Source of the DNA: a virus | Length of the DNA: 21,462 nucleotides | Reading direction: 5' to 3' (one strand) | Virus record (IMG/VR): IMGVR_UViG_3300044953_000348 | Coordinates: 1 to 21,462 of that record | In this document: piece by piece, positions 1,736 to 18,000 of the stretch | Numbering within the stretch: position 1 is the first letter of the stretch | How the letters are laid out: every line of letters starts with the position of its first letter | Position numbers and translations under genes: made by a program | The notes under the pieces: model-generated | The model's input: only the letters and a program-made list of their open reading frames with translations | Database searches by the model: none | Told to the model about the DNA's origin: nothing

Positions 1736-3541
1736 TTAATTAGGCACGTAGATTAATTTTTTATATTCGGGCAGGTAAAGATATTCTATTTTAGAGTTTT
1801 GCAGAGTGCGCACTGCGTCTTCCAATGTTTCTACCAATGGTTCTCCACCCAGATTGAAGGAGGTATTAAAGATCACTGGAATTCCGGTTTTTTCATGGAA
1901 AGTTTTAATTAGATTGTAATAATTTTCATTCTGTTCTTTGGTAACTGTTTGTATTCTACAAGTGCCGTCCACATGTATTATGGCTGGTATTTTTTCAGCC
2001 ACTCCATCTCGACAATTCACTGCGTACATCATGTATGGAGATTCCTCCATGCCTCTTAAATCGAACCAATCATGCACATATTCCTTCAGTATGCTTCCAG
2101 CGAATGGTCTGAAATATTCTCTCTTTTTCACTAAATTTACAAAATCTTTGCCATCTTTAAAAGTTGGATCGAACAATAATGATCTATTGCCCAAAGCTCT
2201 TGGGCCATTTTCAGATCTGCCTTGAAACACGGCAACAATATTTTTTTTGACCAATAATTCTGTTATCTCAGCATCATTGAAATCTTTGCATATGGTTTTT
2301 TTGCCGTCGCACAACTTTTCTATGTCTGCAACGCTGTATTTTCTTTCTGGTCCTAGATATAGACCATGACTGTTTAAGGGAGTTTTGTGTGCAAATATTT
2401 GATGATAAAAGAGAAGAGCAGCACCCATGGCAGTGCCTGCATCATTGCTGACTGGCTCCACGTATAATTCTATTCCGTCTTTTTGCAAGTGTTCTAGATA
2501 TGAATAGTTGGCCACACAGTTCAGACCATAGCCTCCTGACAAAACAACTTTTTTCTTCTGGCTCATCTGCACTGCCTTGTATATTAACTTCAGCACTTGG
2601 GCCTGTGTCTCCATCTGACAGGCGTAAGCCATATCTCTACGATTTTGTAACCTGGTCACGTCATCATATAAACTACCATCAGGATCTTGCAGGAATTCAA
2701 ACAATTGTCCATTCACTAGAGCTGCATTGGGATATGTGGGTATGATTAAATTTCTATTAGATAATGGTATCAAACTGTCATTTTCAAATAATTTAGGAAT
2801 CTTATCATTGGCCTTGCCATAAGGAAATAATCCCATGGTCTTGCCGGCTTCAATGGGCATGAATCCGCAGTATTGGGTCACTGCTTCATAAACTTTAACA
2901 ATGCCAGCCCTGTCACTGAACACCGCTTCGTGCGTCTTTGCGGGCTCGTCGGTGATTTCTGATGGAAAATTTTTCAACACAGCACCAAGCACTGGATCCC
3001 TAGTGCCATAGTGTTTGTACATAGATTTAAATTCTGCAGGGTAATCACAATCTATAATGGATTCTACTTCCCACACTGTGGTAGGACCTTGAATGTTGTT
3101 GTTGATTCCTATGAATGTGCCAGCACCATCAACTATAACGCTCACAGCGCTGTCAAAACCGCTGCGATAAAAAGCACAAGCTGAGTGTAATTTGTGATGT
3201 ATGTGACTGAGATCGATCACTTGTGGATGGTTGTGTGAGTCAGCCTGTCTGTCAATCAGTCCTAATTTTCTTGCCAATCCTGTGTACACATCATCGCCTG
3301 AGAAATCCACTCTGCCTGCTGTGTCTTTGATTTTTTGCGTGTGTGCCACCACCAGATAATCTATTTTATCAGTGTGTTTCAGTATTTCTATCATGGAGGC
3401 AAAAGGACCTCCGTCATATTTTTGTCTGCTTAATCTCTCTTCCTCAATGGAGAAAACTATTTTTCCATCTTTCAACAAGCAAACTCCTGCATTGTGTCCT
3501 CTGGCAATAGCAGCAATATAACCTGAAAGTTTTTTACTCAT
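1736..3541 (-). CDS. Carbamoyltransferase, NodU/CmcH/TobZ family
   Basis: This is a two-domain O-carbamoyltransferase of 601 residues, close to the family's usual length. It would use carbamoyl phosphate and ATP to add a carbamoyl group to a sugar hydroxyl. The Kae1-like N-terminal domain shows GHNAGVCLLKDGKIVFSIEEERLSR (residues about 15-39), the metal-binding HHKLH (115-119), VDGAGT (137-142) and GKTMGLFPYGK (233-243). A nucleotide-binding stretch reads SGGYGLNCVAN (335-345) with DAGTAMGAAL after it. The C-terminal domain has GRSENGPRALGNRSLL (441-456), KREYFRPFA (472-480), HVDGTCRIQ (523-531) and NTSFNLGGEP (559-568), all hallmarks of the family. I chose the ATG at 3541 because GGGAAGAA lies 6 bases upstream and it overlaps the previous gene's stop (ATGAGTAA). 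An in-frame ATG at 3565 would add eight residues but has no ribosome binding site. The acceptor is unknown, probably the product of the flanking glycosyltransferases. Confidence 0.92.
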   Translation of the reverse strand: MSKKLSGYIAAIARGHNAGVCLLKDGKIVFSIEEERLSRQKYDGGPFASMIEILKHTDKIDYLVVAHTQKIKDTAGRVDFSGDDVYTGLARKLGLIDRQADSHNHPQVIDLSHIHHKLHSACAFYRSGFDSAVSVIVDGAGTFIGINNNIQGPTTVWEVESIIDCDYPAEFKSMYKHYGTRDPVLGAVLKNFPSEITDEPAKTHEAVFSDRAGIVKVYEAVTQYCGFMPIEAGKTMGLFPYGKANDKIPKLFENDSLIPLSNRNLIIPTYPNAALVNGQLFEFLQDPDGSLYDDVTRLQNRRDMAYACQMETQAQVLKLIYKAVQMSQKKKVVLSGGYGLNCVANYSYLEHLQKDGIELYVEPVSNDAGTAMGAALLFYHQIFAHKTPLNSHGLYLGPERKYSVADIEKLCDGKKTICKDFNDAEITELLVKKNIVAVFQGRSENGPRALGNRSLLFDPTFKDGKDFVNLVKKREYFRPFAGSILKEYVHDWFDLRGMEESPYMMYAVNCRDGVAEKIPAIIHVDGTCRIQTVTKEQNENYYNLIKTFHEKTGIPVIFNTSFNLGGEPLVETLEDAVRTLQNSKIEYLYLPEYKKLIYVPN

Positions 3542-4475
3542 CTTCATTTCTTCCCATGATGCCATTTATGATAAATTGTTCAATTTCTTCATTCATTTGC
3601 ATTAACAATTCATTTTTCCTACTGATTCTTTCATCCATGGTGATTCTTATGGGATCGTATTCCCTGTCAATTTCTCCAAGATCCATTATGTTGAAATATT
3701 CACAGTCAGGATAGCTGGTATTGATGGGATATGTTGGGCCCAACACCACAGTGCTGGGCGTTTCCATGATATAGGATAGATGTTGCCCCACACTGTCACA
3801 ACCAAAGAAATGATCTGCATGTTTGATCATTGAGGCCCATTGACGCAGATTTAAACCTTCTGGGAAAGCCACCTCATCTGTATATTTTTGATCTTTAAGA
3901 TCTAATCCAAATTCTGACATCAATATTACCCCAAAGTTTTCTTTTTGTAATCTTCTGATCAAGCTCTTGACATTTTTGTATTCTATGCTGCGACTGGTTT
4001 TGTCAATCAAGGTTTGGTCTATGTGTTCTATGCCTCTGCCGAATGGCTGAAATATAATTGTTTTATCTTTTTTTATTTTGTTTTTGATTTCGTCGATCAA
4101 TTTTTTGCCTTGGATGATTTCTTCTTTGCTGAGTATCACTGTAGGTTTGGGCAGAGCTCTTATTCCTTTGTTGTTGATCAAGATGTCAAATGCCTGTGAA
4201 AGGTTACACTTTTGATTGTAGTATTCCCAAACTCTGTAAGGCTCCAAAGTAATCACATCTCTGCTTTGCAGTTTGGAATGAAATAAATTTTTATGAAATA
4301 TGTCGTATGTTTTTTGATCCAGCAGAGGATGGCCTTTGATTATGTCCACTGCTCCCTCACAGATCACCAAGAAATCTTTGTCGCTCGATTCTTCTGCATA
4401 TTTTTCCAGTGCAGGAATGGCACACAAGATTCTGCCTATGCCACCGTTGAGGAAAAATGCTTTGGATCTGATCAT
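3534..4475 (-). CDS. Glycosyltransferase family 9-like protein (GT-B fold), first copy
   Basis: This 313-residue protein has the GT9 layout. A glycine loop reads GGIGRILCAIPALEKY (residues 11-26) and GHP (48-50) sits at the end of the next strand-helix unit. In the C-terminal domain QPFGRG (143-148) is followed by ADHFFGCDSVGQHLSYI (220-236) and TPSTVVLGPTYP (239-250), the nucleotide-sugar-binding region. It is the first gene of a three-gene cassette and overlaps the carbamoyltransferase start by about 8 bases. The promoter upstream (4497-4526) is of host sigma70 type rather than phage late type. The paralogue at 784-1734 is clearly related but not near-identical, so the pair may act on different acceptors or successive sugars. 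Assignment to the GT9 superfamily is firm; heptosyltransferase activity itself is not. Confidence 0.8.
   Translation of the reverse strand: MIRSKAFFLNGGIGRILCAIPALEKYAEESSDKDFLVICEGAVDIIKGHPLLDQKTYDIFHKNLFHSKLQSRDVITLEPYRVWEYYNQKCNLSQAFDILINNKGIRALPKPTVILSKEEIIQGKKLIDEIKNKIKKDKTIIFQPFGRGIEHIDQTLIDKTSRSIEYKNVKSLIRRLQKENFGVILMSEFGLDLKDQKYTDEVAFPEGLNLRQWASMIKHADHFFGCDSVGQHLSYIMETPSTVVLGPTYPINTSYPDCEYFNIMDLGEIDREYDPIRITMDERISRKNELLMQMNEEIEQFIINGIMGRNEDE
3548..3555 (-). promoter_or_regulatory. Ribosome binding site deciding the carbamoyltransferase start
   Basis: GGGAAGAA on the minus strand lies six bases before the ATG at 3541, a normal Shine-Dalgarno distance. The upstream ATG at 3565 has only AT-rich sequence before it. 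This favours the shorter 601-residue protein and start-stop overlap with the preceding glycosyltransferase. Confidence 0.6.
4212..4241 (-). repeat. 30-bp direct repeat, copy in first glycosyltransferase
   Basis: This is the partner of 1477-1506, identical over 30 bases and encoding the same PYRVWEYYNQ peptide. Recombination between the copies would keep reading frame, fuse the two glycosyltransferases and remove the carbamoyltransferase. Confidence 0.9.
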
Positions 4476-4482
4476 ATAAATG

Positions 4483-4495
4483 CTGTCTTGGACAG
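4483..4495 (-). promoter_or_regulatory. 5-bp inverted repeat at the expected transcript start
   Basis: CTGTC and GACAG flank a 3-base spacer directly downstream of the -10 box of the cassette promoter. The repeat would span the transcript start and form either a small 5' hairpin or a short operator. A 5-bp palindrome can arise by chance, so I rank this low. Confidence 0.3.
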
Positions 4496-4496
4496 T

Positions 4497-4526
4497 ATTA
4501 TATATCAGCTAATTGTTTTGTGTGAA
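4497..4526 (-). promoter_or_regulatory. Sigma70-type promoter of the glycosyltransferase/carbamoyltransferase cassette
   Basis: On the minus strand TTCACA (4521-4526) matches the -35 consensus at five of six bases, and TATAAT (4497-4502) is a perfect -10 box. They are 18 bases apart, within the normal range. The pair sits in the 61-base gap before the first glycosyltransferase. In T4-like phages such promoters serve early genes read by unmodified host RNA polymerase, whereas the neighbouring virion genes carry ATAAATA late words. No late word occurs in this gap. Confidence 0.65.
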
Positions 4527-4536
4527 TTATTCGTGA

Positions 4537-5193
4537 TTAGTATTGTGGTACTTCGTGTTTAAATGGAATCTTCCAATGCTCCACATCGGCGTACTTGGTT
4601 GGTATGTTTTCCAGCCATGTCTTATAAGTTTCTAATTTGGTTCTGTTGGCGTCACTGATATTTTCATTGGTTTCCAATGCTCTGCCGATGTTGGCTGCTT
4701 GAACCGCCATGCTGTCTAAAAAACTCTGTCTGGTCAAGGCATGCACTCGGAATCTTGGTCGCACGTATGCACCGTTTTCAAATTTTAAATCTAAACCAAA
4801 GTACTGCTGTGCAATCATGCCGGTGTACTGATCCCAAACGTATTCCCAAGTTTCAGGTTGACCTGCTGCATCCAAAGTGCCCAATTCGCAAGTGAATGGA
4901 GCCACAGCACCAGTGTCATACATGCCAGTCACATAGGCTGCTTCAAATGTGTTCACTGTGGCATCCAACACTGTGTATGACTTGCCTGGTTCTTGCACAT
5001 ATGAATTAAAGCTGTTCATTTCAGTAATGCTGTCTGAGGTAAACACAATTTTTTCCACATATCTACTGGCCGTATCGTATTGTAGTCTGATGTATCTTGG
5101 CCCATTGTAGGTGGCTGTGTAAGTTTTGTTCTGTGTGGTGTCGTTAAGATAAGGCTCATCTGTTAAAGGTATTGTGAAATTTCTTGTGATCAT
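4537..5193 (-). CDS. Virion-associated protein with tail-fibre-assembly-like C-terminus (218 aa)
   Basis: The 218-residue protein is largely beta in its first 150 residues (ATYNGPRYIRLQYD, YVEKIVFTSDS, GKSYTVLDATVNTFEAAYVTG). It ends in a helical stretch, RQSFLDSMAVQAANIGRALE then ISDANRTKLETYKTWLENIPTKY, followed by HWKIPFKHEVP. This tail recalls phage tail-fibre assembly and chaperone proteins, which finish with a helix, a YR..LRD.P turn and a WP motif. The resemblance is by eye and weak. Its position directly after the three Cys-rich proteins would suit a chaperone or attachment factor for them. It has its own late promoter word (5218-5229) and a GAGGAA ribosome binding site upstream. It could equally be a structural protein of unknown role. 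Confidence 0.6.
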   Translation of the reverse strand: MITRNFTIPLTDEPYLNDTTQNKTYTATYNGPRYIRLQYDTASRYVEKIVFTSDSITEMNSFNSYVQEPGKSYTVLDATVNTFEAAYVTGMYDTGAVAPFTCELGTLDAAGQPETWEYVWDQYTGMIAQQYFGLDLKFENGAYVRPRFRVHALTRQSFLDSMAVQAANIGRALETNENISDANRTKLETYKTWLENIPTKYADVEHWKIPFKHEVPQY

Positions 5194-5217
5194 ATCCTGT
5201 GTTCCTCTGCTTTATTT

Positions 5218-5229
5218 AGTGTATTTATC
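5218..5229 (-). promoter_or_regulatory. T4-type late promoter word GATAAATACACT
   Basis: This 12-mer is identical to the one at 327-338. It lies between the last Cys-rich gene and the 218-residue gene, 24 bases before the ATG at 5193, leaving room for a transcript start and the GAGGAA ribosome binding site. Confidence 0.75.
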
Positions 5230-5240
5230 AACATATCCTG

Positions 5241-6203
5241 TTAAGAAGCAATAAATCTGATACGAATGCCACCCCAGCCGCCTCTGATACCGTGATCTCT
5301 CACGTTGGGACATGCTTGTGGGGGCAGCCCGCCTGCTCCAATGGGCAAGTACGGTGAACATCCCTGCATCTCATAGCATCCGCAGGATCTGTCTGATCTC
5401 CAGCAATGACTGTTGGGTGCTCCTCTTTGAGGAGATTTGGTCATGCCTGCCAATGCGGCAAAATATGGCATCAATTGTGATCCAGCCATACCGTCTGTGT
5501 GTCTATTACCGTCTGTGGTGTTCACTGCCACTCTTGCGCCTTTTTCCGCAAACATGTATGAAGGCAGTGGAGCATAATGATAAAATTGACATGGGCATAC
5601 CGGTTGACAACCTAAGAAAGCTGAACAGCCAATGATGCCGCAACAGTTGATTTCGCCACCGTAGGCCAGTGCTTCCCAGCCTCCTGAACAATGATTGCAG
5701 ATGATACCGCAGTTGTCATTGATGGGTCCAAATCCACAGAATCCATTGGCGTAGAAACAACACCACATGCTGGAGCCGGTGCTGCAGAAAGAGGTGCCAC
5801 CTCTGCCACCCCTGGAACACATGCAACCGTTGCTAGTGGTGCTGGTCCAACATATCATGGTGGGGTCACCGCAACCTGAAAAACACAAGTCATGTGCGTA
5901 GCGAGGAAAGCCCACGCAGCCACACACAAAGTTGGCAGTGGTCACTGAAAAAGATCTTCTCGAATATCCTCCCGCGTTGCCTGGCAAACCTGAACCGCAG
6001 CAGCACATGCGAGAACCAGATCCTCCTGCTCCCCATGCCTCCACAATCACACAGCCAGAAGCCGGTGGCTTCCAACACAATCCATTACAGTACTGGGTGT
6101 AGAATGTGCCGGGGCAGAAGGCGTAGATAACACCTGTCTCCAGATTGTTCTCTGTGATTTCGTAGGTTACTCTGTTCGATAATATGCTTTTCAATCCTGG
6201 CAT
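5241..6203 (-). CDS. Cysteine- and glycine-rich adhesin-like protein, third tandem copy (320 aa)
   Basis: The 320-residue protein contains 32 cysteines by my count. An N-terminal strand region ends in CVIVEAWGAGGSGS, matching the glycine-rich-domain signature V.VWGAGG.G seen in phage tail-tip adhesins. It is followed by MCCCGSGLPGNAGGYSRR, GCMCSRGGRGGTSFCST, WCCF..GFCG, NDNCGIICN, ALAYGGEINC and CPC. The end is CGCYEMQGC.PYLPIGAGG..PQACPNVRDHGIRGGWGGIRIRF, where the GG.G.IRI strand closes the domain as in other Gly-rich modules. I infer a tail-tip receptor-binding or surface-exposed virion protein with a polyglycine core stabilised by disulphides or metal. Its ATG overlaps the stop of the preceding copy (TAATG). 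This copy differs most from the other two in the segment near residue 215-245. Confidence 0.75.
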   Translation of the reverse strand: MPGLKSILSNRVTYEITENNLETGVIYAFCPGTFYTQYCNGLCWKPPASGCVIVEAWGAGGSGSRMCCCGSGLPGNAGGYSRRSFSVTTANFVCGCVGFPRYAHDLCFSGCGDPTMICWTSTTSNGCMCSRGGRGGTSFCSTGSSMWCCFYANGFCGFGPINDNCGIICNHCSGGWEALAYGGEINCCGIIGCSAFLGCQPVCPCQFYHYAPLPSYMFAEKGARVAVNTTDGNRHTDGMAGSQLMPYFAALAGMTKSPQRGAPNSHCWRSDRSCGCYEMQGCSPYLPIGAGGLPPQACPNVRDHGIRGGWGGIRIRFIAS

Positions 6204-7201
6204 TAGTTTAACCCCAATATTCCTGTTCCTGTGTATTTAATCCTGATCATTCCATGACCACCACGATAGGCGTGATCTCTCACGTCAGGACATGGATGTG
6301 GTCCTGATCCTGGGTGTCCTGGTGGTGAGTATGGTATACATCCATTGGCCTGATAACATCCGCAGTATCTAAATCCTGTCCAACATGCTGAATAGTTTCC
6401 TCCGCCTGTGGGATTCCTTCCGGCCAATCCCAAAGTGTGCAAATATCCGTATATTGATCCACCGCTCCAGTTGTAGGCTCCATTGTCCCCATCATTGGTG
6501 TAGGTGATCCAAGCTCCGCAATCAGCAAACATCTTGGGTGGAGTTCTCAAGTGATACCAGAATGCGCAAGGGCATGTGGGGTAACAGCCAAAATAGCTCA
6601 CGCAGCTGAATCCTCCGGCCATGTTGCAGGTGCCACCGTAGGCCTGAGCTTCATGTATGGCACAGCCAGCTCCCCTGTAGTTGCACACGATGCCGCAGTT
6701 GTCGCCAGCGCACTTGGTGCTGCAGAAACCACCGGCTGTGAAACAACAGTAGGCAGATGGCGTGGTAGAACAATAACTGAATCCACCCTGACCACCTTCC
6801 GCACACATACAACCTGTGGTGCCGTTGCCTTGCCAGCACACTCCGGTGCTTTCAGATCTGCCTCTGTAACATAAGTCCTCTGTGTTGCCGCAGCTCAATC
6901 CCACGTTGCCCCTTATGCAGCAGTTCACTGTGACTGAAACTGTCCTGCTGGAATAAGCACCTGGATTGCCCGGCAGTCCATATCCGCAGCAGCACATCTC
7001 AGCTCCGGATCCACCCGCTCCCCAGATCTCAATCAATGCTGTGCCTGTGCCTGGTGATCTCCAACACACGCCGCAACAGAAGTTTGTGCCCTGTGCTGTG
7101 CCCGGAGTGTAGGCCCATATTCTGCCTTCCTCAAGGTTGGTTTCCAAGCCCTGTAATTGGAATGCTAATTTAGTTTCTAACAATGATCTAAGCGTTGGCA
7201 T
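6203..7201 (-). CDS. Cysteine- and glycine-rich adhesin-like protein, second tandem copy (332 aa)
   Basis: This is the longest of the three paralogues, with 32 cysteines in 332 residues. The shared landmarks occur in order: ALIEIWGAGGSGAEMCCCGYGLPGNPGAYSSR, GCMCAEGGQGGFSYCST, YCCFTAGGFC, DNCGIVCN, AQAYGG, CPCAFWYH, NDGDNGAYNW, SACW....YCGCYQANGC, then SGPHPCPDVRDHAYRGGHGMIRIKY. It starts three bases after the preceding copy and overlaps the next by one base, so the three are one transcript with coupled translation. It carries ten extra residues after the IRIKY strand (TGTGILGLN). No signal peptide or membrane segment is seen. The role is inferred as virion surface or tail-tip adhesin. Confidence 0.75.
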   Translation of the reverse strand: MPTLRSLLETKLAFQLQGLETNLEEGRIWAYTPGTAQGTNFCCGVCWRSPGTGTALIEIWGAGGSGAEMCCCGYGLPGNPGAYSSRTVSVTVNCCIRGNVGLSCGNTEDLCYRGRSESTGVCWQGNGTTGCMCAEGGQGGFSYCSTTPSAYCCFTAGGFCSTKCAGDNCGIVCNYRGAGCAIHEAQAYGGTCNMAGGFSCVSYFGCYPTCPCAFWYHLRTPPKMFADCGAWITYTNDGDNGAYNWSGGSIYGYLHTLGLAGRNPTGGGNYSACWTGFRYCGCYQANGCIPYSPPGHPGSGPHPCPDVRDHAYRGGHGMIRIKYTGTGILGLN

Positions 7202-7204
7202 AAT

Positions 7205-8188
7205 TTAATAATCCGATATCCATTTGATTCTGATTGCTCCACCTCCACCGCTCATGGCGTGATCTCTCACTCCGGGACATGGATGTGGTCCTGATGCCGG
7301 AAAGCCTGGTGGTAAAAGAGTGGTACAGCCTTCGTTCTCGTAACAACCGCAGTTGAGACTACCGTTCCAGCAGGCCGAGAAAGGTGCGCCGTACTGCGGA
7401 AGTCTAGAAGCTCCCGCCAATGCTTGTAAATATTGACCACGACCCTGACCTGACCAGTTGGCGAAACCATTGCCGTCGTCATTGTTGAAACTCACCACCA
7501 CTCCGCATTTGGAATAATATCCTGCAGGACCTTGAATGTGCCAGTGTGTAGCACAGGGACATGAACTGCCTGAATCTCCCAGGAAGCTCACGCAGCTGTA
7601 TCCACCTGGACAATTGATTTGGCCGCCATAGGCCTGAGCACACCATCCACCTGAACAACATCTGTTGCAAACAATGCCGCAGTTTCCGTTGACTCCCAGT
7701 GTGTGATGAAATCCGTTTGCTGCGAAACAACAGTAGGCATTTGTGCCTGTGGAGCAGATTGAAACTCCTCCCCGGCCACCTTGAGCGCACATACATCCAT
7801 CATTGGTAAGCCCGTTGCCATAATAGGTTATGCCTGTGGCATTACCACAGCCTCTGAAACATAAATCTGCAGCATTACGACAACTCATTCCCACCTGACC
7901 TTCGATGCGCCCGCAGCAGGTCAGTGAGATTGTTCTTCTTGCATAGGCTCCTGGATTGGCCGGCATTCCAAATCCGCAGCAGCACATATGAGCACTGGAT
8001 CCACCCGCTCCCCAGATCTCCACAATGGCAGTGCCGGATACGCAGGGTTTGAAACAGATACCAAAATAATATGCGTCAAAGTTGGGACTGGTGTGGTACA
8101 TGTAGATCTGACCCGACTCAACATTGGTTTCTGTGACCTGTGGAAAGTCATTCTTCTTTGTAGCCGTAAGTGTTTTTAAACTTGCCAT
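7205..8188 (-). CDS. Cysteine- and glycine-rich adhesin-like protein, first tandem copy (327 aa)
   Basis: This is the first of the three paralogues, with 30 cysteines in 327 residues. It shows TAIVEIWGAGGSSAHMCCCGFGMPANPGAYARR, DLCFRGCGN, GCMCAQGGRGGVSICST, YCCFAANGF, GNCGIVCNRCC, AQAYGGQINC, SCPC, NDDGNGFANWSGQG, SACW....NCGCYENEGC and SGPHPCPGVRDHAMSGGGGAIRIKW. The N-terminal 50 residues (MASLKTLTATKK...) are less conserved and may attach the protein to the tail or particle. AAAGGA sits eight bases before the ATG. No late promoter word is visible in its 48-base leader, so it probably depends on the promoter at 8591-8600. Confidence 0.75.
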   Translation of the reverse strand: MASLKTLTATKKNDFPQVTETNVESGQIYMYHTSPNFDAYYFGICFKPCVSGTAIVEIWGAGGSSAHMCCCGFGMPANPGAYARRTISLTCCGRIEGQVGMSCRNAADLCFRGCGNATGITYYGNGLTNDGCMCAQGGRGGVSICSTGTNAYCCFAANGFHHTLGVNGNCGIVCNRCCSGGWCAQAYGGQINCPGGYSCVSFLGDSGSSCPCATHWHIQGPAGYYSKCGVVVSFNNDDGNGFANWSGQGRGQYLQALAGASRLPQYGAPFSACWNGSLNCGCYENEGCTTLLPPGFPASGPHPCPGVRDHAMSGGGGAIRIKWISDY

Positions 8189-8236
8189 ACTTTCAAATCC
8201 TTTTTGATCAGTCCGCTGTGAATCTAATGAATTAAA

Positions 8237-8569
8237 TTACACTGCGCCAACGATCCAACCAGTACCCGCTCCTACGTAGATCAGTGTCACGATAGCCTGA
8301 TTCAAATCAATGGTTAAATTGTCAGCTGCTCCGTTGATCAATGCACCGTTTCTAGCCACTGTGATGTTGTTGGTAGCTGCATAATTGCCAACATCTATGA
8401 TTTGAATGGTGTCATTGTCCAACAAACTGGTGCTGATTGGTAGAGTGATAGTGAAAGCTCCCGCAGTGGAGTTAGCCAATATCCTATCATTCACCACTGC
8501 TTGATATGTGGTCGTCACGCTTCTGATCACTATGCCAGCGGTTCCGGTTGTTGATATGTATCTTCCCAT
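8237..8569 (-). CDS. Small beta-rich virion protein (110 aa)
   Basis: The 110-residue protein is almost entirely short strands: TTYQAVVNDRILANSTAGAFTITLP, DNDTIQIIDVG, NNITVARNGALINGAADNLTIDL and VTLIYVGAGTGWIVGAV. This is a recognisable phage module (Y.A..GDRI.ANT.GGAFTVTLP....GDTI.I.D.....NN.TV.RNG..I.G..ED...D.....VTLVY.G..W), found free-standing or as a fibre C-terminal domain in many tailed phages. It is probably a structural or head/tail decoration protein. It has a late promoter word at 8591-8600 and an AAGGA ribosome binding site. Confidence 0.75.
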   Translation of the reverse strand: MGRYISTTGTAGIVIRSVTTTYQAVVNDRILANSTAGAFTITLPISTSLLDNDTIQIIDVGNYAATNNITVARNGALINGAADNLTIDLNQAIVTLIYVGAGTGWIVGAV

Positions 8570-8590
8570 GTTTTAGTCCTTGTGTTTTCT

Positions 8591-8600
8591 TGTATTTATG
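8591..8600 (-). promoter_or_regulatory. T4-type late promoter word CATAAATACA
   Basis: The minus strand reads CATAAATACA in the gap before the gene starting at 8569. The flanking leader resembles that before the 2014-residue gene: both have GTTAGTA just upstream and an A/C-rich stretch ending in AAGGA downstream. Confidence 0.7.
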
Positions 8601-8615
8601 CTACTAACGGTATTA

Positions 8616-8936
8616 TTACAGCGTTGATGTTTCAATGCCGTAGACCACCGCACTAGCGTTGCCCCCCGATGCGTATGCCACTAATCTCTGTGTTGCTGCC
8701 AAAACTAGGCCGGTTCTTTCCAGCACTCCTTTGGCCAGTACTTCCACATCGAATTCAATGAACTCGCCAGCAGTTGGAGTGCCTGTGTCTGCCACAGCCA
8801 ATCTAAAAGTTTGAGCTTGATTGCCCCGATTAAGCAAGTTCACAGCAACTACTGCAAACGTATCGGCCGGACAGGTATACACTGTTGTAAGCGTAGCAGC
8901 GGGTAAAACCGATGCTCCCAATCTTCCTGTTGCCAT
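8616..8936 (-). CDS. Small virion protein (106 aa)
   Basis: This 106-residue beta-rich protein begins MATGRLGASVLPAATLTTVYTCPADTFAVVAVNLLNRGN, followed by a strand with GEFIEFDVEVLAKGVLERTGLVLAATQ and a closing AVVYGIETSTL. The LT.VYT.P......V.V...NR..Q pattern is typical of small beta-sandwich proteins next to fibre genes in marine T4-like phages. No enzyme motif is present. It has the best ribosome binding site in the window (AAGGAGAA at 8943-8950) and ends in tandem TAA stops. It follows the 2014-residue gene by 28 bases with no late promoter word between. I infer a structural role only. Confidence 0.7.
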   Translation of the reverse strand: MATGRLGASVLPAATLTTVYTCPADTFAVVAVNLLNRGNQAQTFRLAVADTGTPTAGEFIEFDVEVLAKGVLERTGLVLAATQRLVAYASGGNASAVVYGIETSTL

Positions 8937-8942
8937 TTACTG

Positions 8943-8950
8943 TTCTCCTT
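8943..8950 (-). promoter_or_regulatory. Strong Shine-Dalgarno sequence AAGGAGAA
   Basis: This lies six bases before the ATG at 8936 and is the closest match to the Shine-Dalgarno consensus in the window. It suggests the 106-residue protein is made in larger amounts than the giant fibre encoded just upstream on the same transcript. Confidence 0.6.
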
Positions 8951-8964
8951 TTGTTGTACTCTTG

Positions 8965-11900
8965 TTATCCTTGCAGGAACAAGCCCAATGCCACGGGCGT
9001 TCCTTTTATTCCAGCTGTGAAATTCACAGGTGAATCAAAGTTTATTGTCACCCCAGTGGTGGTCTCGATGATATTGCTGTATATCGTGATCAAACCTGCA
9101 GTGATCTGGTTCACGTTCAGACTGCTGGCTCCACCGCCGATCTGACTAGATATATATGTTCTAATCGCTCTCTGGGTGGGCACAATTTGGTCACTGTTGG
9201 CTGCCATCGTGCCATCCGTGGAGAATTCATTGATGGAAGCACTGCTGCCTCCCAATACCAATTCTCCCAACTGAAGTTCCTGTAATCCTGATATGTTGAA
9301 TGCGTCCGCGTTTAATGTGGCGATACCCGTGCTCTGCTCCACCGAGAACAGATCTCCCACTCGGAAGTTGCCGTCCTGATCAGTGCTGGTGAAGAACACA
9401 CGTCCTCCACCACCTTCCACGGTTTCGTTATCTGGGTTAGATGGTATCAAAGGTATGCCTGGGTAGTTGGTGTTCGTGAAATTGCCGGTGCCGACATCTA
9501 GGAAATCATGACCGGTCAATCTGATCTGCGAATATCTAATCTTGATTGAGACTGGATCACCATGTGCCGGAGCTTCTCCCACTGCTATTTCTGGACTCAC
9601 CTGCAACAGTGCAGTGAACGGATATTGTGTGCCCAAAAGATTCTGCACACTGACCAGTTTGTAATAATTGCCGGGGAGAGAGTCAAATTCCACATTGGAA
9701 CCTGCCTGAGGTATGCTGCTGAGGTTTTCTACCTGTATGAAGCTGCCGCTTTGCAAGCTGTTCCTGAATCCCCCAAATTCTGTCACTGTGCCAGTGGCTG
9801 GACCAATATAGGTGCCATAGCTGCTGGTATCCAATGGCACTGTCAATGCCGAGTCCACATACAGTGCGAAAGTGCTGGCGGTCAACACACTCACGTAATA
9901 CCAAACCCCACTGTTCAACTGGAATATGCCTGCCACATTTTCGAATTTTACCTTCTGCCCTGACGAAAAACCATGTGCTCCAGGGCTGCCACCACCAGAT
10001 GTGGTAGTGGTCGTGACCACTCCTGGGCTGGCGTTTGTCACTCCAAACACATATTTCAAGTTTCCTGTCATGGTGACAGTGGTCACTGCTGTGAGATTGG
10101 CCGTACCCCTGTTGGTGAAAGTGGGTTGACCCAGAGCTCCATCGCCAATGAAAACCTGCACTGGTGCTTCCACTGTGTTGCTGGGATCTACAATGGTCAC
10201 TGTGGGTGCAGACACATAGCCCGAACCTGGTTCAATAATTCTGATCGAAGATATTTTTTCAGTGGTCACCACTGCCCTTGCGAGGGTAGTGTAACCCGAA
10301 GGGGGTGCACTTACAACAATGCGCGGCACGTATTCATATTTGGTTGTGCCGTCAAGTGCGGGTTCAACCAATCGCACAGTCATGGTGCCTGCGGCTGTGC
10401 TGAGCGTGACTGCACTGCCTCCCAAAGTGGCACTGACTTTGAACTGCGTGGTGCCAGTGATATTGACCACATAGTATTGCGTGTATCGACTTATGCCACC
10501 AAATGTGGTACCGTCAAACTGCACTCCTGCGCCCACATACAACGCTGAATTGGAATCACAAGTGATCAGGTCCGTGGTCACTGTGGTATTGGTACAAGTG
10601 GGGTTAACAAGATAATCGAATCCTGCTTTATGCAGTTGCATGCTTCCCGCGCCGTCTGCAGTGATGTCTAGCACAGATCCACCAGGTGATGTGCTGATGG
10701 TAAATGTCGTAGCAGTGGGTTTGGCCAACACATAGTAAATGGTTGGGTTGGTGGCAGTGGTGGTCACTCCGCCGAATGCTGTGCCGCTGAACATGATCGG
10801 CATGTTGACGTCCAGCGTGCTGCTGTCCGCACAGGTGAATCTATCGTTTGATGCTGTGGCTGCTGTGACCGTTAAAGCGGTGAAAGAAGGTCGGGCGACC
10901 TTGGCGACTTTTGTGCCTGCGTTGAATCCCACAATGTATGCATACTGTCCCGCTCCCAATCCTTCCGTGATCCAGATTGCCAAACCGGTCAACTGACTGG
11001 CCAAAGATGTGTCAGTGTTGGAAATAGTGATGGTCTTGTCAGAGCCGCTCTGGGCCACGTTGGTGGCAGAAACATAGCCATCACCACCATAGTTGCTCTC
11101 GGGAGAAGTAACAGTTTCATCCAATCGGATTTCGTACACAGCACCGTTGCGGATGGTGGCAGTGGTGCCAGTGATGCCATATCCATCTCCTGATATGGTC
11201 AGTGTGGCTGCCGTGGTGTAATTGGTGCCGGCATTGGTGTATTCCATGGCCAGTATCCTGTTGCCATCTGTGAATGTGTTGCCTATGGTGGCATCTGTGC
11301 TTCTGTTGTCCACCTTGCATGTGATTGGTGTTTCAGTGACATCCCCACCTTCGGACACAGATCCAAATTTACCGTAGGAGTTGTTACCATTGGTTGCTCT
11401 CACCTTTCCGCCATTTTCAGCCAGATATCCAATGTGATTGTAGTAAGTGAACACAGAAACCAATTCTGATCTGCCTAGGTTGGTCACCCAGAATCCGATA
11501 CCGTCCGATAAAATTTGTGTGAAGTCGTTGGCTACCACCGAATCATTGCCTCCATTGTGCAATGCACCATCCACTTTCAATCCCACGCAACCTGTGCCGA
11601 ACGTGGATACGTTTTGCACGTACGGAGATTTATTGGTGATCCAGACGTCCTCATGTGCCGGTCCCCAACCTGGATCCAAAGATACATAGGATCCCGCTGT
11701 GGGTCTTTGAGTGCCATAAGCGTTGGCAGCTCCCAGTGTGCCTGACAATCCCTGCAGTGTGCAGTTCCTCAATCCTGTGCCGTTCCTCATGAGGAACATG
11801 TCGGATAGCACGCTGCCCGTCACTGCAACTTCATAATATTTGGCTGCCACTATAGACTTATAATTGCCAGTGTATATCAGATCGTGGCTGATGGCGTCCA

Positions 11901-14900
11901 CATATTCTCTCACATCTCGCTTGCAGCTCAGTTCGTTGGCTCCGGTGAAATATGTGATGAATGCGCCAGGATTGTTTTTCTTGGTGTGCTCCACCACTTC
12001 TGTGGCTATGAATTCTTTGTTCTCTATCAATCTCAACACAGCGTCAGTGTAGCCCACGGCAGTCTGCGGTAGATTGGAACCACTTACGATGGGTTCTGGG
12101 GTGCTGCTGTCACCTATCACATTGTAGTTGATGTAATAGTATATGTCGTCCGCGATGTTGACCGCAGCTGTAGCAGCCGCAGCTGAGCCTGCCGGAGCGT
12201 CAACATTTTGTGCTCCTGCCAATGCCACTGTGCCCGATCCCACCGTGCTCACAGTGAATGTGGTGGCCAAGCTGCTGCCCCCCAATAGTCCTGCAGCTAT
12301 GGTCAATGTGTTGCCCGCTGTGTAACCTGAGCCCGTGTTGCCGAGGCTGAATGACGTGATCACTCCCAAAGCATTCACAGTGGCGTTCACTGTGGCTCCT
12401 GTTCCTGAACCACCAGTCACTACCACGCTGGTATAGGTTCCAGCTGTCCTGTTCACATCTGCATTTGGGGTGGTCACGGTAAGGAGATATCCCGCTGGCG
12501 TGGGAGTGATTGCTGTGTTGGTAATTATGTCATCAATAATGGACCTCAATCTATCTATGCCATACAGAGAGTAGGGTACATCATAAGGATCCACGTAACT
12601 GGGAGCGGGTCTGATGTTGGTGCTGCGCAGCTCATCTCCCACGATCGCAGTGCTTTCACGCACGCGTATTGGCAGCACTTCTTCGAACACTCCAGTTTTT
12701 ACAAAAACTGTGTTGTTGGCAATTCTTTCAGCTGGCACGTCATCGATGTCGCCCGCTATGATCGCATCAATTATGATGTCCATCAGGGATTCGATCAATG
12801 CTTGCCCTTCAGGTTCTTCAACAATGTCGTTGTCGATCACTTGAGGCACAACCGCTTGCAGTGCTGAATATCCTGCATCATTGGATATGGCTGCATCTAT
12901 CACTGTCTTGGCAAATTCTATTGCTGCGCTGGTTTCGTTCTCTTGTCCAGACACGTAAGATCCGCTGCCTGTGTAATAAGATATAGCAGCCAATCTACTC
13001 TTTTCGTTGCCTCCATGTCCCACGTCCCAATGCACTGCATCAATGATCTGTCCCAAGTCTCTGATACACTTGACTGAATCATATTTCAATCTGACCACCA
13101 TGGTGCCGGAAGCGGTGCTGAGCGCGACTGCTGATCCGCCCGGGGTCAGACTCACTTGTATGGTCGTGGAAGATTTGGCCGTGATATAGTATGTGACTCC
13201 AGCACTGATGCCTCCAAATGTGGTTCCAGTAAATTCAACTCTCATGCCCACTCTAAGGTTCACTGTGCTGCTGCAGGTGATAAGATTGGTGCTAGCTGTG
13301 GTGTTGGTCACTGTGGCCTGATAGGTGGCGTCAATGTAGGCGATGGTTTCCCTCTGAATGAATGCTTTGTTTCTCAACAATAAATTTCTCGCGTTCGGAT
13401 ACAACGGTCCTTTGTCGACTTCTTTCAAGGCGTACTGGATGGTCTTCCATGGCTGGTTCAATGTGGCACCATAATCTGGTGCTGGCAGATCCACTCCTGA
13501 AGTGGCCACATACCATACGTTGTTGATTTTTCCAAAATAACCCCACTCAGGCAGTGTGCCCGCAGAGTTTACCAACAAGGTTTGACCCGAAAGTCCGATA
13601 GGCAGTCTTGTAGGGCCTGAAGGACCATACAACAAAAGATCTCCCTGTGTGGTCAATGCTGTGCTTTCAGCTCCTCCTGATAATAACTGCCAGTATGTGC
13701 CTGAGTCTACACCAGCTCCCGGTGCATAATCTGGCTGCGTGATCGTGGCAGGTCCCACGTTGTTGGATGTATGACCAAGTATGCAGATGTATGAATTGTT
13801 GGTGTTGATGATGCCTCGCACCACATCACCTTTGTCATACAGTGTGGCATTGGCCCAGTTGCCCTTCCAATAGATGCCTTCGTTGAGTTTGTCCCAATAG
13901 ACAGCATTGGGTGGCCTGTTGCCTGTGCTGTCCTCAATACAGATATAAGTGAATCCTCCCAAGCGCACCACGTCACCATTCAGATAGGCAGTGCCGTTGT
14001 TGTAGTCTCCCGTGAGACGGAACCCTGTGACGAATAAATCCCAATTCACGCCTGCAAATGTGTTGGGGTTCTTATTGATGCTGTTGGTCTTGGCTACATA
14101 GCCATAACCACCATAAGTGACGAAGTCACCTATTTGGTAATTGGTGGCTGAACTCCATGAATCCTCAAATTCTAATCCTGGCACAAACACTGCCCAGTTG
14201 GCCTCATCCGCGGTCAGTGTTGTGGTTGAAGTGTGATATGTGGTACAGATCCATAGACTTGGTCCCCACTTGACCACATCATTTATTTTGTATCTAGTTG
14301 TGCCTGCCCAATCATTTTTGTATTCTATTCCTTTGTGTAGATAATCCCATTTGCCCTGATCCGCCTCCAATCCCAAAGCTGCTGTGGCAGCTGATGTGTG
14401 ACCAAGGTTGTTTACATATAATTGTCCACCATATCGTACGACGTCTCCTAATTTATATCTAGTATCCACTGTCCAAGCGTTCAACCAGTTGAATCCTTTG
14501 GAGAAAACTTCCCAGCTGGCAAGGTTGCTCTCTAAACCTAAAGCGGTGGTGGCAGCTGACGTGTGCGGAGCGATACAGGTGTAGATGTAAGCGCCATATT
14601 TCACCAGATCATTCAATTTGTATCTGGTGGACACTGCCCAATCTGATTTGTAATCGAAACCTTCTGAAAATAGATCCCATTTGGCCTGATCTGCTTCCAA
14701 TCCCAAGGTGAGCGTGGCAGCTGATGTGTGACCTTCGTTGGCAATGTACAGGTACCCGCCATATTTCACTATGTCATTGGGTTTATATGTGGTGTTCAGC
14801 GACCAGTCGTCTTTCCACTCCTGACCATCGCTCATCAGGTTCCATTTTAAAGCATCATAATCTGTTTGGAAAACTCCGCTGGTGTGTCCCACCACGCATA

Positions 14901-15009
14901 TATAGGTACGGCCACCATATCTTATCACGTCATCGATAAAATACTCAACGGCAGTGATCCAGGCACCCTTCCAAATGAACCTAATCCTACCTAATTTAAA
15001 CTCAGCCAT
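8965..15009 (-). CDS. Giant modular fibre/adhesin-like structural protein (2014 aa)
   Basis: Residues 1-446 hold eight units of about 50-60 residues of the form W....Y..GD.V.YGG..Y.C...HTS, like CBM5/12-type carbohydrate-binding modules. A linker follows with TQGDLLLYGPSGPTRLPIG (about 454-472). From about 495 a pectate-lyase-like right-handed beta-helix begins (WKTIQYALKEV, then TVFVKTGVFEEVLPIRV...TAIVGDELRST at 767-797). It continues through GLRNCTLQGLSGTLG and WITNKSPYVQNVSTFG...HNGGNDSVVANDFTQ (1079-1164) to NGNNSYG (1207-1213). Two inserts, roughly residues 536-764 and 803-1070, contain a duplicated helical module. Three copies of a TTFGGIS beta-module and a GSGY..AP.VTI repeat follow. 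The C-terminus has TMAANSDQIVPTQRAI and closes with a short beta tail. It is paralogous to the 1793-residue neighbour. The likely role is a host-binding fibre or baseplate-attached protein. A late promoter word and AAGGAAA precede it. Confidence 0.85.
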   Translation of the reverse strand: MAEFKLGRIRFIWKGAWITAVEYFIDDVIRYGGRTYICVVGHTSGVFQTDYDALKWNLMSDGQEWKDDWSLNTTYKPNDIVKYGGYLYIANEGHTSAATLTLGLEADQAKWDLFSEGFDYKSDWAVSTRYKLNDLVKYGAYIYTCIAPHTSAATTALGLESNLASWEVFSKGFNWLNAWTVDTRYKLGDVVRYGGQLYVNNLGHTSAATAALGLEADQGKWDYLHKGIEYKNDWAGTTRYKINDVVKWGPSLWICTTYHTSTTTLTADEANWAVFVPGLEFEDSWSSATNYQIGDFVTYGGYGYVAKTNSINKNPNTFAGVNWDLFVTGFRLTGDYNNGTAYLNGDVVRLGGFTYICIEDSTGNRPPNAVYWDKLNEGIYWKGNWANATLYDKGDVVRGIINTNNSYICILGHTSNNVGPATITQPDYAPGAGVDSGTYWQLLSGGAESTALTTQGDLLLYGPSGPTRLPIGLSGQTLLVNSAGTLPEWGYFGKINNVWYVATSGVDLPAPDYGATLNQPWKTIQYALKEVDKGPLYPNARNLLLRNKAFIQRETIAYIDATYQATVTNTTASTNLITCSSTVNLRVGMRVEFTGTTFGGISAGVTYYITAKSSTTIQVSLTPGGSAVALSTASGTMVVRLKYDSVKCIRDLGQIIDAVHWDVGHGGNEKSRLAAISYYTGSGSYVSGQENETSAAIEFAKTVIDAAISNDAGYSALQAVVPQVIDNDIVEEPEGQALIESLMDIIIDAIIAGDIDDVPAERIANNTVFVKTGVFEEVLPIRVRESTAIVGDELRSTNIRPAPSYVDPYDVPYSLYGIDRLRSIIDDIITNTAITPTPAGYLLTVTTPNADVNRTAGTYTSVVVTGGSGTGATVNATVNALGVITSFSLGNTGSGYTAGNTLTIAAGLLGGSSLATTFTVSTVGSGTVALAGAQNVDAPAGSAAAATAAVNIADDIYYYINYNVIGDSSTPEPIVSGSNLPQTAVGYTDAVLRLIENKEFIATEVVEHTKKNNPGAFITYFTGANELSCKRDVREYVDAISHDLIYTGNYKSIVAAKYYEVAVTGSVLSDMFLMRNGTGLRNCTLQGLSGTLGAANAYGTQRPTAGSYVSLDPGWGPAHEDVWITNKSPYVQNVSTFGTGCVGLKVDGALHNGGNDSVVANDFTQILSDGIGFWVTNLGRSELVSVFTYYNHIGYLAENGGKVRATNGNNSYGKFGSVSEGGDVTETPITCKVDNRSTDATIGNTFTDGNRILAMEYTNAGTNYTTAATLTISGDGYGITGTTATIRNGAVYEIRLDETVTSPESNYGGDGYVSATNVAQSGSDKTITISNTDTSLASQLTGLAIWITEGLGAGQYAYIVGFNAGTKVAKVARPSFTALTVTAATASNDRFTCADSSTLDVNMPIMFSGTAFGGVTTTATNPTIYYVLAKPTATTFTISTSPGGSVLDITADGAGSMQLHKAGFDYLVNPTCTNTTVTTDLITCDSNSALYVGAGVQFDGTTFGGISRYTQYYVVNITGTTQFKVSATLGGSAVTLSTAAGTMTVRLVEPALDGTTKYEYVPRIVVSAPPSGYTTLARAVVTTEKISSIRIIEPGSGYVSAPTVTIVDPSNTVEAPVQVFIGDGALGQPTFTNRGTANLTAVTTVTMTGNLKYVFGVTNASPGVVTTTTTSGGGSPGAHGFSSGQKVKFENVAGIFQLNSGVWYYVSVLTASTFALYVDSALTVPLDTSSYGTYIGPATGTVTEFGGFRNSLQSGSFIQVENLSSIPQAGSNVEFDSLPGNYYKLVSVQNLLGTQYPFTALLQVSPEIAVGEAPAHGDPVSIKIRYSQIRLTGHDFLDVGTGNFTNTNYPGIPLIPSNPDNETVEGGGGRVFFTSTDQDGNFRVGDLFSVEQSTGIATLNADAFNISGLQELQLGELVLGGSSASINEFSTDGTMAANSDQIVPTQRAIRTYISSQIGGGASSLNVNQITAGLITIYSNIIETTTGVTINFDSPVNFTAGIKGTPVALGLFLQG
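11800..12603 (-). other. Insert 2 in the 2014-aa protein (helical module plus Gly/Ala-rich beta stretch)
   Basis: Between IVGDELRSTNIRPA and MFLMRNGTGLRN this protein has about 265 residues. The 1793-residue paralogue joins the equivalent positions with about eight. The insert contains LRSIIDDIITNTA, a GSGTGATVNATVNA...GSGYTAGN beta stretch, an Ala-rich segment, and VLRLIENKEFIATEVVEHT...CKRDVREYVDAISHDLIYTGNYKS. Boundaries are approximate. Confidence 0.7.
12718..13404 (-). other. Insert 1 in the 2014-aa protein (helical module with nested beta-module)
   Basis: About 230 residues separate the start of the beta-helix from the TVFVKTGVFEEVLP strand; the 1793-residue paralogue lacks them. The insert holds NLLLRNKAFIQRETIAYI, a nested TTFGGIS beta-module, then VKCIRDLGQIIDAVHWDVGHGGN and SRLAAISYY, and helices up to DDVPAERIANN. 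Its first and last helical parts match insert 2. Confidence 0.7.
13672..15009 (-). repeat. Eight tandem CBM5/12-like repeats encoding the N-terminus of the 2014-aa protein
   Basis: Eight coding units of about 150-180 bases share W....Y..GD.V.YGG..Y.C...HTS and end in E.D.A.W..F..G. Units 2-4 are the most alike in protein and also keep short identical DNA runs, such as GGTCACACATCAGCTGCC (minus strand) near 14385 and 14715. This points to recent unit duplication or gene conversion. Trp, Tyr and His at fixed positions fit sugar-stacking residues, but binding is inferred. Confidence 0.8.
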
Positions 15010-15045: not shown

Positions 15046-18000
15046 CTAACTGCCATATCCGTTGCTGGGGTCATTCAAACTCACGGCATCGCCTTCATCC
15101 AACTCGGTGGATGCCACTCCCCCCAAGAAATAGTTCAACGCCAGCAAGGACCCCTTGACTGGTCTGTTGAAAGACACAGGTACCTCCATCCTGATTTCTT
15201 CGCCCCCCACATTGAATATCGTATCAGTTTGCAACTGCACAGCACCCGCTCTCAAGACGGACACATTCAAAGTAGATCCTCCACCTGAAATTCTGCTTTG
15301 TATGTAGGCTATGATGGCCTTTTGCGTGGGCACGATGTTGTCGCTGTTGGCAGCCATAGTCACATCTGTGCTGAACTCACGTATAACTGCACCAGATCCA
15401 CCTAATACCACGCCACCCAGTGACAATTCGGTCAATCCCTCCAATTGGAAGAAATCTGCAGCCAAGGTCACTATACCACTCGACTGTTCCACTTCGAACT
15501 GTTCTCCAACTCGGAAGTTGCCATTTTGATCCGTGCTGGTGTAAAACACACGTCCTCCGCCGGACTCCACCACTTCGTTGAATGGTTGTGGTTCATAGCC
15601 AGACGTAAATCCTACTGTATATAATTGTGGGTAGTTGGTGTTCGTGAAATTGCCGGTGCCGATATCCAAGAAGTCATGACCTGTCAATCTCACTTGACTG
15701 TAATTTTGTCGTATGGTGATATCTACCTCATGACCTGGCGACAGGTAAGCATCCACTCCTGGTCCTATTCTCAATGTGCCATATATGTTGGGTTCCACGC
15801 CACCCAAGGAAACGAAATTGCCCAATTTGAAAATTTCGTTTGGTATGTTGGCGAACTCCACGTTATCACCTGGGCTGGGCAATCTGGATAAATTTTTTAT
15901 TCTTAAAAATTTTCCTGTCTGATATTTGTCGGCTAATCCGTCCCCGCTGATCGTGGCCGCCACGTTAAGAAATCCAGTTCCTCTGTTGGTAAACGTGGGT
16001 TGGCTCACGGCGCCGTTATTGATTCTTACATCAAACAAAGCTTCTATTATGTTGCTATTATCCACTATGGTCATGCTGGGCGTACTTGAATATCCGCTGC
16101 CTGGTTCGATCAGCTCCACTATGCTCATCCTTCCAGAGGAGGTTCTTGCTCGACCCAAAGCTCTCGCTCCGTATCTTATAACCTTGATCTGATTGGTGCT
16201 GGCATCCTTGAGCGGAATGTAACAAGGTCCGTTGACCGATCCACCCGTTATGGATGTCCAGACGCCCCCACCAGATGGCAGCTGAGTGCTCAACACTTTC
16301 CAATGCTTGCCGTCTATGCTTTCTGCTAGATCTCCTGATTCAGTGATTGCCACAAAACATCCTTGGCTGTAACTAATCTTATATGCATCTGCCTCAGGAG
16401 GCAGCTCGCTTGGTTGCCACACAGTGATAGCTGATGCAGCCACGCTGGCTTGGTTGGCCAAAGTGTAGTAGAATCTGTTGCTCAAGGTGCTGGAGTCATA
16501 AGGGTTGTCATTGCAGGCCGCAACGAATCTATTGTTGCCGTAAATCAGATCCTGCACATTTATTCCCGCGCCGCCGATGTCGGGTCCTGGGTTCCAAGTG
16601 ACACCTAAGTTGGAACTTTCATAAGTTTGCCCCAGGTCATCACACACAATGAATAAGCCAGATCCACCAGCCGAATGTGTAAGTGCCGGAGTAGAACCGT
16701 CATAGTTGGCTACTAAGAATGCAGTCCAAGATGATCCGTTGTTTGCGGAGCGCAGCACGTAACCTTGATTGGTGGTGATAATAAAAATATCCTGTTCACA
16801 GGTCATGCTGGTAAAATTTCCGTATCCTCCTGGGGTAGTCAGTCCTGTCCAAGTGGACCCCGTGGTGGTGCCTGATATGGCATTGGTGGAGGCCGCTAAC
16901 AAATGTGTGCTGCTGCGAGCAGTGTAAAGATAGTTCACTGAGGCCAATCCTGTGCAGGCTGTAAAAGTGCTGCCATTGGTGGTAAAATATCCACCGCTGG
17001 CGCTGAGCACCACAGTGACATTGCTGCCGCTGAATCTAGCAGATCCCACGCTGCCCCAGGCGGCGCTGATAGGCAGGACCACAGTGTTGGCCGCATATGG
17101 TGGATCAGAAAATGTCAGCAAAGGTTCAATGCTGTATTTGGTTGATCCATCCAGGATGGACTCAATGGCTAATCCCCCCAATAGATGTTCAAAGCCAGGC
17201 TGTGAATCAAACTGTCTCACCACATCTATCTCTTTCAGTGGGTGATCATAGTATGAAATCACTGCAAATTGTCCTCGACCGGTGCCTTCTAATATTTGAA
17301 TTCGTTGGCCCACTATCTCCGCAGACACAAAATATGCCGAGCCTGTTGCCGTGCTCAAAGTCAGCACTCCACCGCCTTGGGTGGCACTGATTTTAATTGT
17401 GTTGGCAGACACCAGCGAGTGTACATAGTATATGGTGTCCGGACTGATGCCGCCAAACATGGCACTTGGGAAAATTATTGCGTCACCCACTTGCATGTTT
17501 ATAATGTTTTGAACAGTGATAGTGTTGACTGGATTGCCCAGAGTGGCCGTGCATGTTTTTTCATACTCTGGTTCATATTGATTGGCCAGCAACAATGAAA
17601 TATCATCTCCACCTCGAGAATTGCCTGTGATGGATGTGTATCCTACTCCACCGGTGATGCCACTGTCCAAAGGATCAGTCATTCTTACTTGGCTTATGGA
17701 TTGATATCTAGTGTTTTCATAATCTATGTATGCAGCTGCTCCAGCGCCCGAACCTGTGATGCTCACTGTGGCAGCAGTATAGTCCTGACCTGTGTGAGAA
17801 TATCCAAAACAAAATATCTGATTTTCGTCATTGTACACAGTGTTGACCGAGGCTTCTGTTGATTGATTGTCCACTTCGGCAGTGATGGGAGTTTCTACTA
17901 ATGAATATCCTTCGGCCACTGACCCATATGTTCCATAAGAGTTATTGCCGTTGGTGGCACGCAATTTTCCTCCATCTTCTGCCAGGTAACCGATGTGACA

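Follow-up and report, generated by a model that had tools for sequence, protein, structure and literature searches.

A conserved three-gene set of cysteine-rich, TNF-like/glycine-rich proteins among tail-fibre genes of T4-like phages: a possible hetero-oligomeric fibre tip

The window examined here, which is the whole stretch of 21,462 bases, carries on its minus strand three adjacent cysteine-rich genes. In order of transcription, these encode copy A, a Cys-rich TNF-like/glycine-rich protein (7205..8188, 327 aa, 30 Cys, 9.2%), followed by its Cys-rich paralogues copy B (6203..7201, 332 aa, 32 Cys, 9.6%) and copy C (5241..6203, 320 aa, 32 Cys, 10.0%). The genes are tightly packed, with a gap of 3 nt between A and B and an overlap of 1 nt between B and C, while their products are 44-50% identical to one another over the whole length and contain 16-18% Gly. 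In the 12 other minus-strand ORFs of the window that were tested, Cys accounts for 0-1.6% of residues, and a protein search of the window recovered exactly A, B and C as members of the family. A preliminary description made from the letters of the DNA had reported three neighboring paralogues of 320-332 aa with 30-32 Cys each, which the ORF positions and residue counts confirm. The sequence blocks it had singled out (MCCCG.G.P.N.G.Y..R, GCMC..GG.GG.S.CST, NCGI.CN, CPC and CGCY...GC) all prove to be invariant columns across the three proteins. Each protein also matches phrog_4205 (A 3e-06, B 2.5e-05 and C 6.8e-06).

The surrounding genes, all encoded on the same minus strand, place the triplet among tail-fibre functions. 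Immediately upstream are two small, conserved tail-like proteins, one of 110 aa with weak tail-protein profile matches (8237..8569) and the other of 106 aa with a tail-fibre profile match (8616..8936), which are preceded by two long tail fibre proteins matching phrog_9851, one of 2014 aa (8965..15009, 4.8e-206) that is a possible carrier of a tip and one of 1793 aa (15046..20427, 2.1e-181). Downstream is a conserved partner of 218 aa (4537..5193), a candidate assembly chaperone judging by its adjacency and its AF2 model, as well as two further conserved neighbors recognized by profile matches and considered here solely as context, a phrog_8954 protein (3534..4475) and a carbamoyltransferase (1736..3565). 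This gene order is largely common to the cultured phages S-CAM1, S-CAM3 and P-SSM2, and in S-CAM1 the Cys-rich set lies in the block leading to gp13-gp18. Likewise, 150 of 175 homologues of the 218-aa partner are found directly downstream of the last Cys-rich copy, making the context a conserved one by computation. A second homologue of this partner occurs further downstream in L022, L025, L026, L028, L029, L039, L041, L042, L045 and L047. The 2014-aa fibre protein (8965-15009) has four matches to the CBM_5_12 carbohydrate-binding module. The ORFs at 784-1734 (316 aa) and 3534-4475 (313 aa), which flank the carbamoyltransferase gene, are of similar size and alike by eye. In addition to phrog_8954, the product of the latter faintly matches LPS heptosyltransferases, and heptose genes are located near the S-CAM1 and P-SSM2 loci, so that synthesis or modification of a sugar is a possible function of the downstream cassette.

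Relatives of A, B and C are present in more than 150 viral contigs, with the same layout recurring in more than 100 loci. Among cultured phages, the family is encoded by S-CAM1 and S-CAM3 with three copies each and by P-SSM2 with two (PSSM2_304 and PSSM2_306), and the contig AG-345-F15 also carries two. The S-CAM1 homologues contain 8.4-11.6% Cys; no other ORF of 230 aa or longer in that genome exceeds 3%, the median being 0.9%. This singularity, together with the recurrent layout, argues that the triplet is not a product of chance. The S-CAM1 and AG-345-F15 members match phrog_4205 and/or phrog_35878, two families catalogued without function, and neither the copy-number rule nor the Cys content appears in those records as displayed. 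The relatives in cultured phages were detected solely via the B, S-CAM1, S-CAM3 and AG-345-F15 queries; tblastn searches of phages with copy A and one further relative gave no match at 1e-5, and megablast of the whole window gave none. Among open-licence papers, we found no description of the Cys-rich family. The longer relatives are T4-like, as both gp20 and gp23 are present. A gp23 fragment from the contig of a near relative (L004) and a gp20 from that of a farther one (L009) are closest to those of jumbo T4-like phages, including Phosso, Atu_ph07, Vibrio phage 2.275.O and Serratia phage BF. The psbA gene, a sign of a cyanobacterial host, is found in S-CAM1 and S-CAM3 and in 0 of 16 long contigs. 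The seawater setting assumed in the preliminary description finds no footing in the window, which holds nothing pointing to a marine origin.

Several individual loci merit separate mention. At the end of the L004 contig (L198), an ORF beside gp23 resembles by eye the delta-aminolevulinate dehydratase HemB. The Cys-rich genes of L092 reside on contig PAOW01000006.1 of a metagenome-assembled genome (MAG) named Euryarchaeota, where they are surrounded by a phage gene order; this is probably a phage contig binned in error. L165, L168 and L170 each hold more than three Cys-rich relatives, most of them lower in Cys (about 6-9%). In L016, we disregarded a mechanically called Cys-rich ORF (2-1633) that overlaps an annotated gene of larger size.

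One of the key features of the family is its copy number. Exactly three copies are encoded in 52 of the 57 distinct complete loci, the others having one (n = 2), two (n = 2) or four (n = 1); these are loci with complete flanks and with near-duplicates removed, drawn from the best 80 matches per query and not from the whole collection, with L165 and L170 left out as lying too near a contig end. Before near-duplicates were removed, three copies were counted in 131 loci, one copy in 3 and two copies in 4. The exceptions are P-SSM2-type loci with two copies, L078, L079 and L088 with one, and a few others with four or more. The copies are also orthologous by position, as the tree contains nearly one clade per gene position, requiring 5 label changes versus a mean of 54 for shuffled labels, and a tree with more S-CAM-type loci exhibits the same tendency. 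The lineage of L070, L072 and L080-L082 is a departure from this pattern, since the correspondence between gene position and the three orthologue groups is not a simple one there. A long branch separates the two main branches, window-type and S-CAM-type, and fits either one ancestral triplication or two. The single-copy loci L078 and L088 nest within the window-type branch and have a different gene context, and therefore look derived. With the number fixed and the tree branches following gene position, each copy has thus long kept a role of its own.

The fold of copy A was computed with AF2 from a 105-sequence alignment (pLDDT 82.5, pTM 0.82), and the predicted model was compared using Foldseek and VIA-align. 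The best match is the fibre of cyanophage Pam3 (Z 14.9 over 193 aligned residues, rmsd 3.1 A; Foldseek E 1.1e-05), followed by the tail tip of Bxb1 (Z 11.5) and the glycine-rich (TG) domains of ALK/LTK (Z 7.8-9.5), all other rows scoring 4.6 or less. The ALK/LTK domains are of the same fold class, but they belong to animal receptor ectodomains and exhibit no sign of close kinship. Among viral models, the S-CAM3 homologue ranks first and many proteins with glycine-rich domains come next; P-SSM2 Q58M49 and Syn9 gp38 are also included among the matches. Sequence-profile searches of the PDB yielded no relative of the Cys-rich proteins, and Gly_rich_2 (PF21722) had no match to A, B or C at E values up to 1. 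The same profile is passed at its curated cut-off by S-CAM1 copy 3 (40.4 bits vs 24.3) and likewise by S-CAM3 copies 2 and 3, and a profile-to-profile comparison of the window family with the alignment holding these proteins gives an E of 2.3e-21. The model matches and the Gly_rich_2 passers bear out the glycine-rich tail-tip scaffold that had been proposed from the DNA. It had also been stated that such domains normally lack Cys, and they can indeed do so, as an ordinary P-SSM2 Gly_rich_2 protein has 2 Cys in 485 aa (0.4%), this being one control only. That B and C would share the fold of A rests on their 44-50% identity to it. The N-terminus of A is modeled as a short helix (4-9) with low-confidence stretches up to residue 21; in the AG-345-F15 and P-SSM2 members, the N-terminal extension is longer.

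The receptor-binding fibre gp24 of Pam3 is a trimer and occurs in a 3:3 complex with the phage-encoded chaperone gp25 (PMC9608196). Like copy A, the gp24 structure (PDB 7YPX/7YFW) has a TNF-like domain that continues as a glycine-rich lattice, it belongs to a tailed phage, and in both cases a chaperone or candidate chaperone gene is near by. However, gp24 is a homotrimer encoded by one gene, it has a long N-terminal helical stalk, and neither Cys nor disulphides are mentioned in PMC9608196, whereas the window encodes three proteins with about 10% Cys and no long stalk is seen in A. The 218-aa partner shares the general plan of gp25, since its AF2 model (pLDDT 96) begins with a beta-rich part and has a hairpin of helices at the C-terminus; it has no significant PDB match and no Pfam match above the cut-off. 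The matches of a chaperone-like query were confined to proteins of other phages annotated for tail fibre assembly, and this query was set aside. By analogy with Pam3, the 218-aa protein may be the assembly chaperone of the Cys-rich copies.

Based upon these features, we interpret the triplet as a conserved three-gene, Cys-rich variant of the TNF-like/glycine-rich phage adhesin that would form an obligately hetero-oligomeric fibre tip, in the simplest case a 1:1:1 heterotrimer, and we assign this reading a probability of roughly 0.5. In such a tip, A, B and C would be distinct subunits of a single host-binding structure on the T4-like phage tail fibre, each presumably a TNF-like jelly roll extending into a glycine-rich lattice. 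The obligate A:B:C hetero-oligomer would be supplied by equal amounts of protein made from the three tightly packed genes. The 218-aa protein encoded downstream would probably assist its assembly, and the products of the upstream fibre genes would be its carriers. The cysteines would probably stiffen exposed loops, their thiol chemistry being completed outside the cell, most likely as disulphides and possibly as metal thiolates. Virion presence is something we infer for these proteins; we found no virion proteomics for a family member in the literature (PMC3037559 analyzed S-SM1, with recourse to S-PM2 and Syn9). Several observations weaken the hetero-oligomeric reading. Three is not a universal number, given the two-copy P-SSM2-type loci, the one-copy L078, L079 and L088 and the loci with four or more; the long N-terminal stalk of the Pam3 type is unseen in A and the 218-aa partner lacks a significant PDB match; the Cys residues yield no parity or co-change signal of pairing (see below); and the lineage of L070, L072 and L080-L082 breaks the positional mapping. 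In a bolder version, an obligate C1q-like A:B:C heterotrimer on the glycine-rich scaffold would bring about 90 Cys together in one tip, which disulphides or metal thiolates would lock only once the phage is released; such a redox-armed receptor-binding tip would have been maintained in cyanophages as well as in jumbo-like T4 relatives. This version is more tentative and, in our view, rather doubtful.

The same genes could also encode three separate homotrimeric tips that are all needed together but differ in their receptor or in their baseplate site. The best fold match, Pam3 gp24, is itself a homotrimer, an orthologue group for each gene position would equally be expected of specialized proteins, and two-copy (P-SSM2) and one-copy (L078/L088) loci exist. 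Yet independent adhesins would be expected to come and go singly, unlike the constancy of three in 52 of 57 loci, and the tight gene packing speaks against them as well; we regard separate homotrimers as possible, though on the unlikely side. The preliminary description had offered either a hetero-oligomeric tip or a receptor-switching set. Of these, it is the former that is favored by the fixed number and the positional orthology. A set of three interchangeable tips, one in use at a time, would be in keeping with tandem paralogues beside tail-fibre genes, but we consider it very improbable, as there are 0 inverted repeat pairs of at least 16 nt in 4400-9000, the divergence is old and even (44-50% identity over the whole length), and position, order and number have long been kept. 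It is similarly improbable, if less so, that these are not virion proteins at all but secreted or intracellular Cys-rich proteins with a borrowed fold, which might, for example, bind metal or host thiols during infection. The glutaredoxin genes of S-CAM1 would suit such a role, as would the negative outcome of the search for virion proteomics, whereas the fold matches phage fibres and tail tips and the genes are encoded among tail-fibre genes, next to gp13-gp18 in S-CAM1.

The cysteines themselves raise a further choice. In the window-type family, 22 alignment columns are at least about 90% Cys, and about 11 Cys columns are common to the two main branches, of about 30 Cys per protein; thus, a high Cys content has been kept while many of the positions differ. 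Cys counts exhibit no even-number bias (187 even vs 173 odd), among 137 independent close pairs a difference of one Cys is seen in 33 and a difference of two in one direction in 9, and no co-change of Cys column pairs on the trees survives correction for pair number. Variable Cys therefore seem to come and go mostly singly, which speaks against their obligatory pairing, although these tests reach only the variable Cys, and invariant Cys or inter-subunit bonds would escape them. In the copy A model, loops show no excess of Cys relative to strands and helices (p 0.84). Disulphides, metal thiolates and free thiols are each possible, the first two having been suggested, as bonds formed after lysis or as metal clusters, in the preliminary description. 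Phage proteins fold in the reducing cytoplasm, which is one consideration in favor of metal-binding thiolate sites instead of disulphides, on a scaffold and assembly that may be the same as in the hetero-oligomeric reading. The CCC, CC and CxC motifs kept across the window-type family and the lack of even-number bias or paired Cys change are further points for metal, but no known metal-binding family was matched in Pfam or NCBIfam and no metalloprotein fold match stood out, leaving it a rather unlikely alternative. For disulphides there is a precedent in Agrobacterium phage Milano, the virion of which is disulphide-linked, including its receptor-binding proteins (PMC10811340). We rank disulphides first due to this precedent and the presumed outside setting of an adhesin. 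In Milano, structural proteins average 2.1% Cys and the bonds have been mapped in sheath, tube and baseplate (PMC10811340), whereas the triplet combines about 10% Cys with a tip-like fold, known here from sequence and model.

Judging by Pam3, a phage adhesin of this fold consists of one kind of protein assembled into homotrimers. If the hetero-oligomeric reading is true, a tip composed of three fixed paralogues, each with about 10% Cys, would mean that tail fibres can be assembled on a principle new to them, and phage attachment would depend directly on redox state or metal supply. Given how frequently the family occurs in viral contigs, and its presence in the cultured phages S-CAM1, S-CAM3 and P-SSM2, these ideas are testable now, and protein families that presently have no listed function would acquire a probable one.
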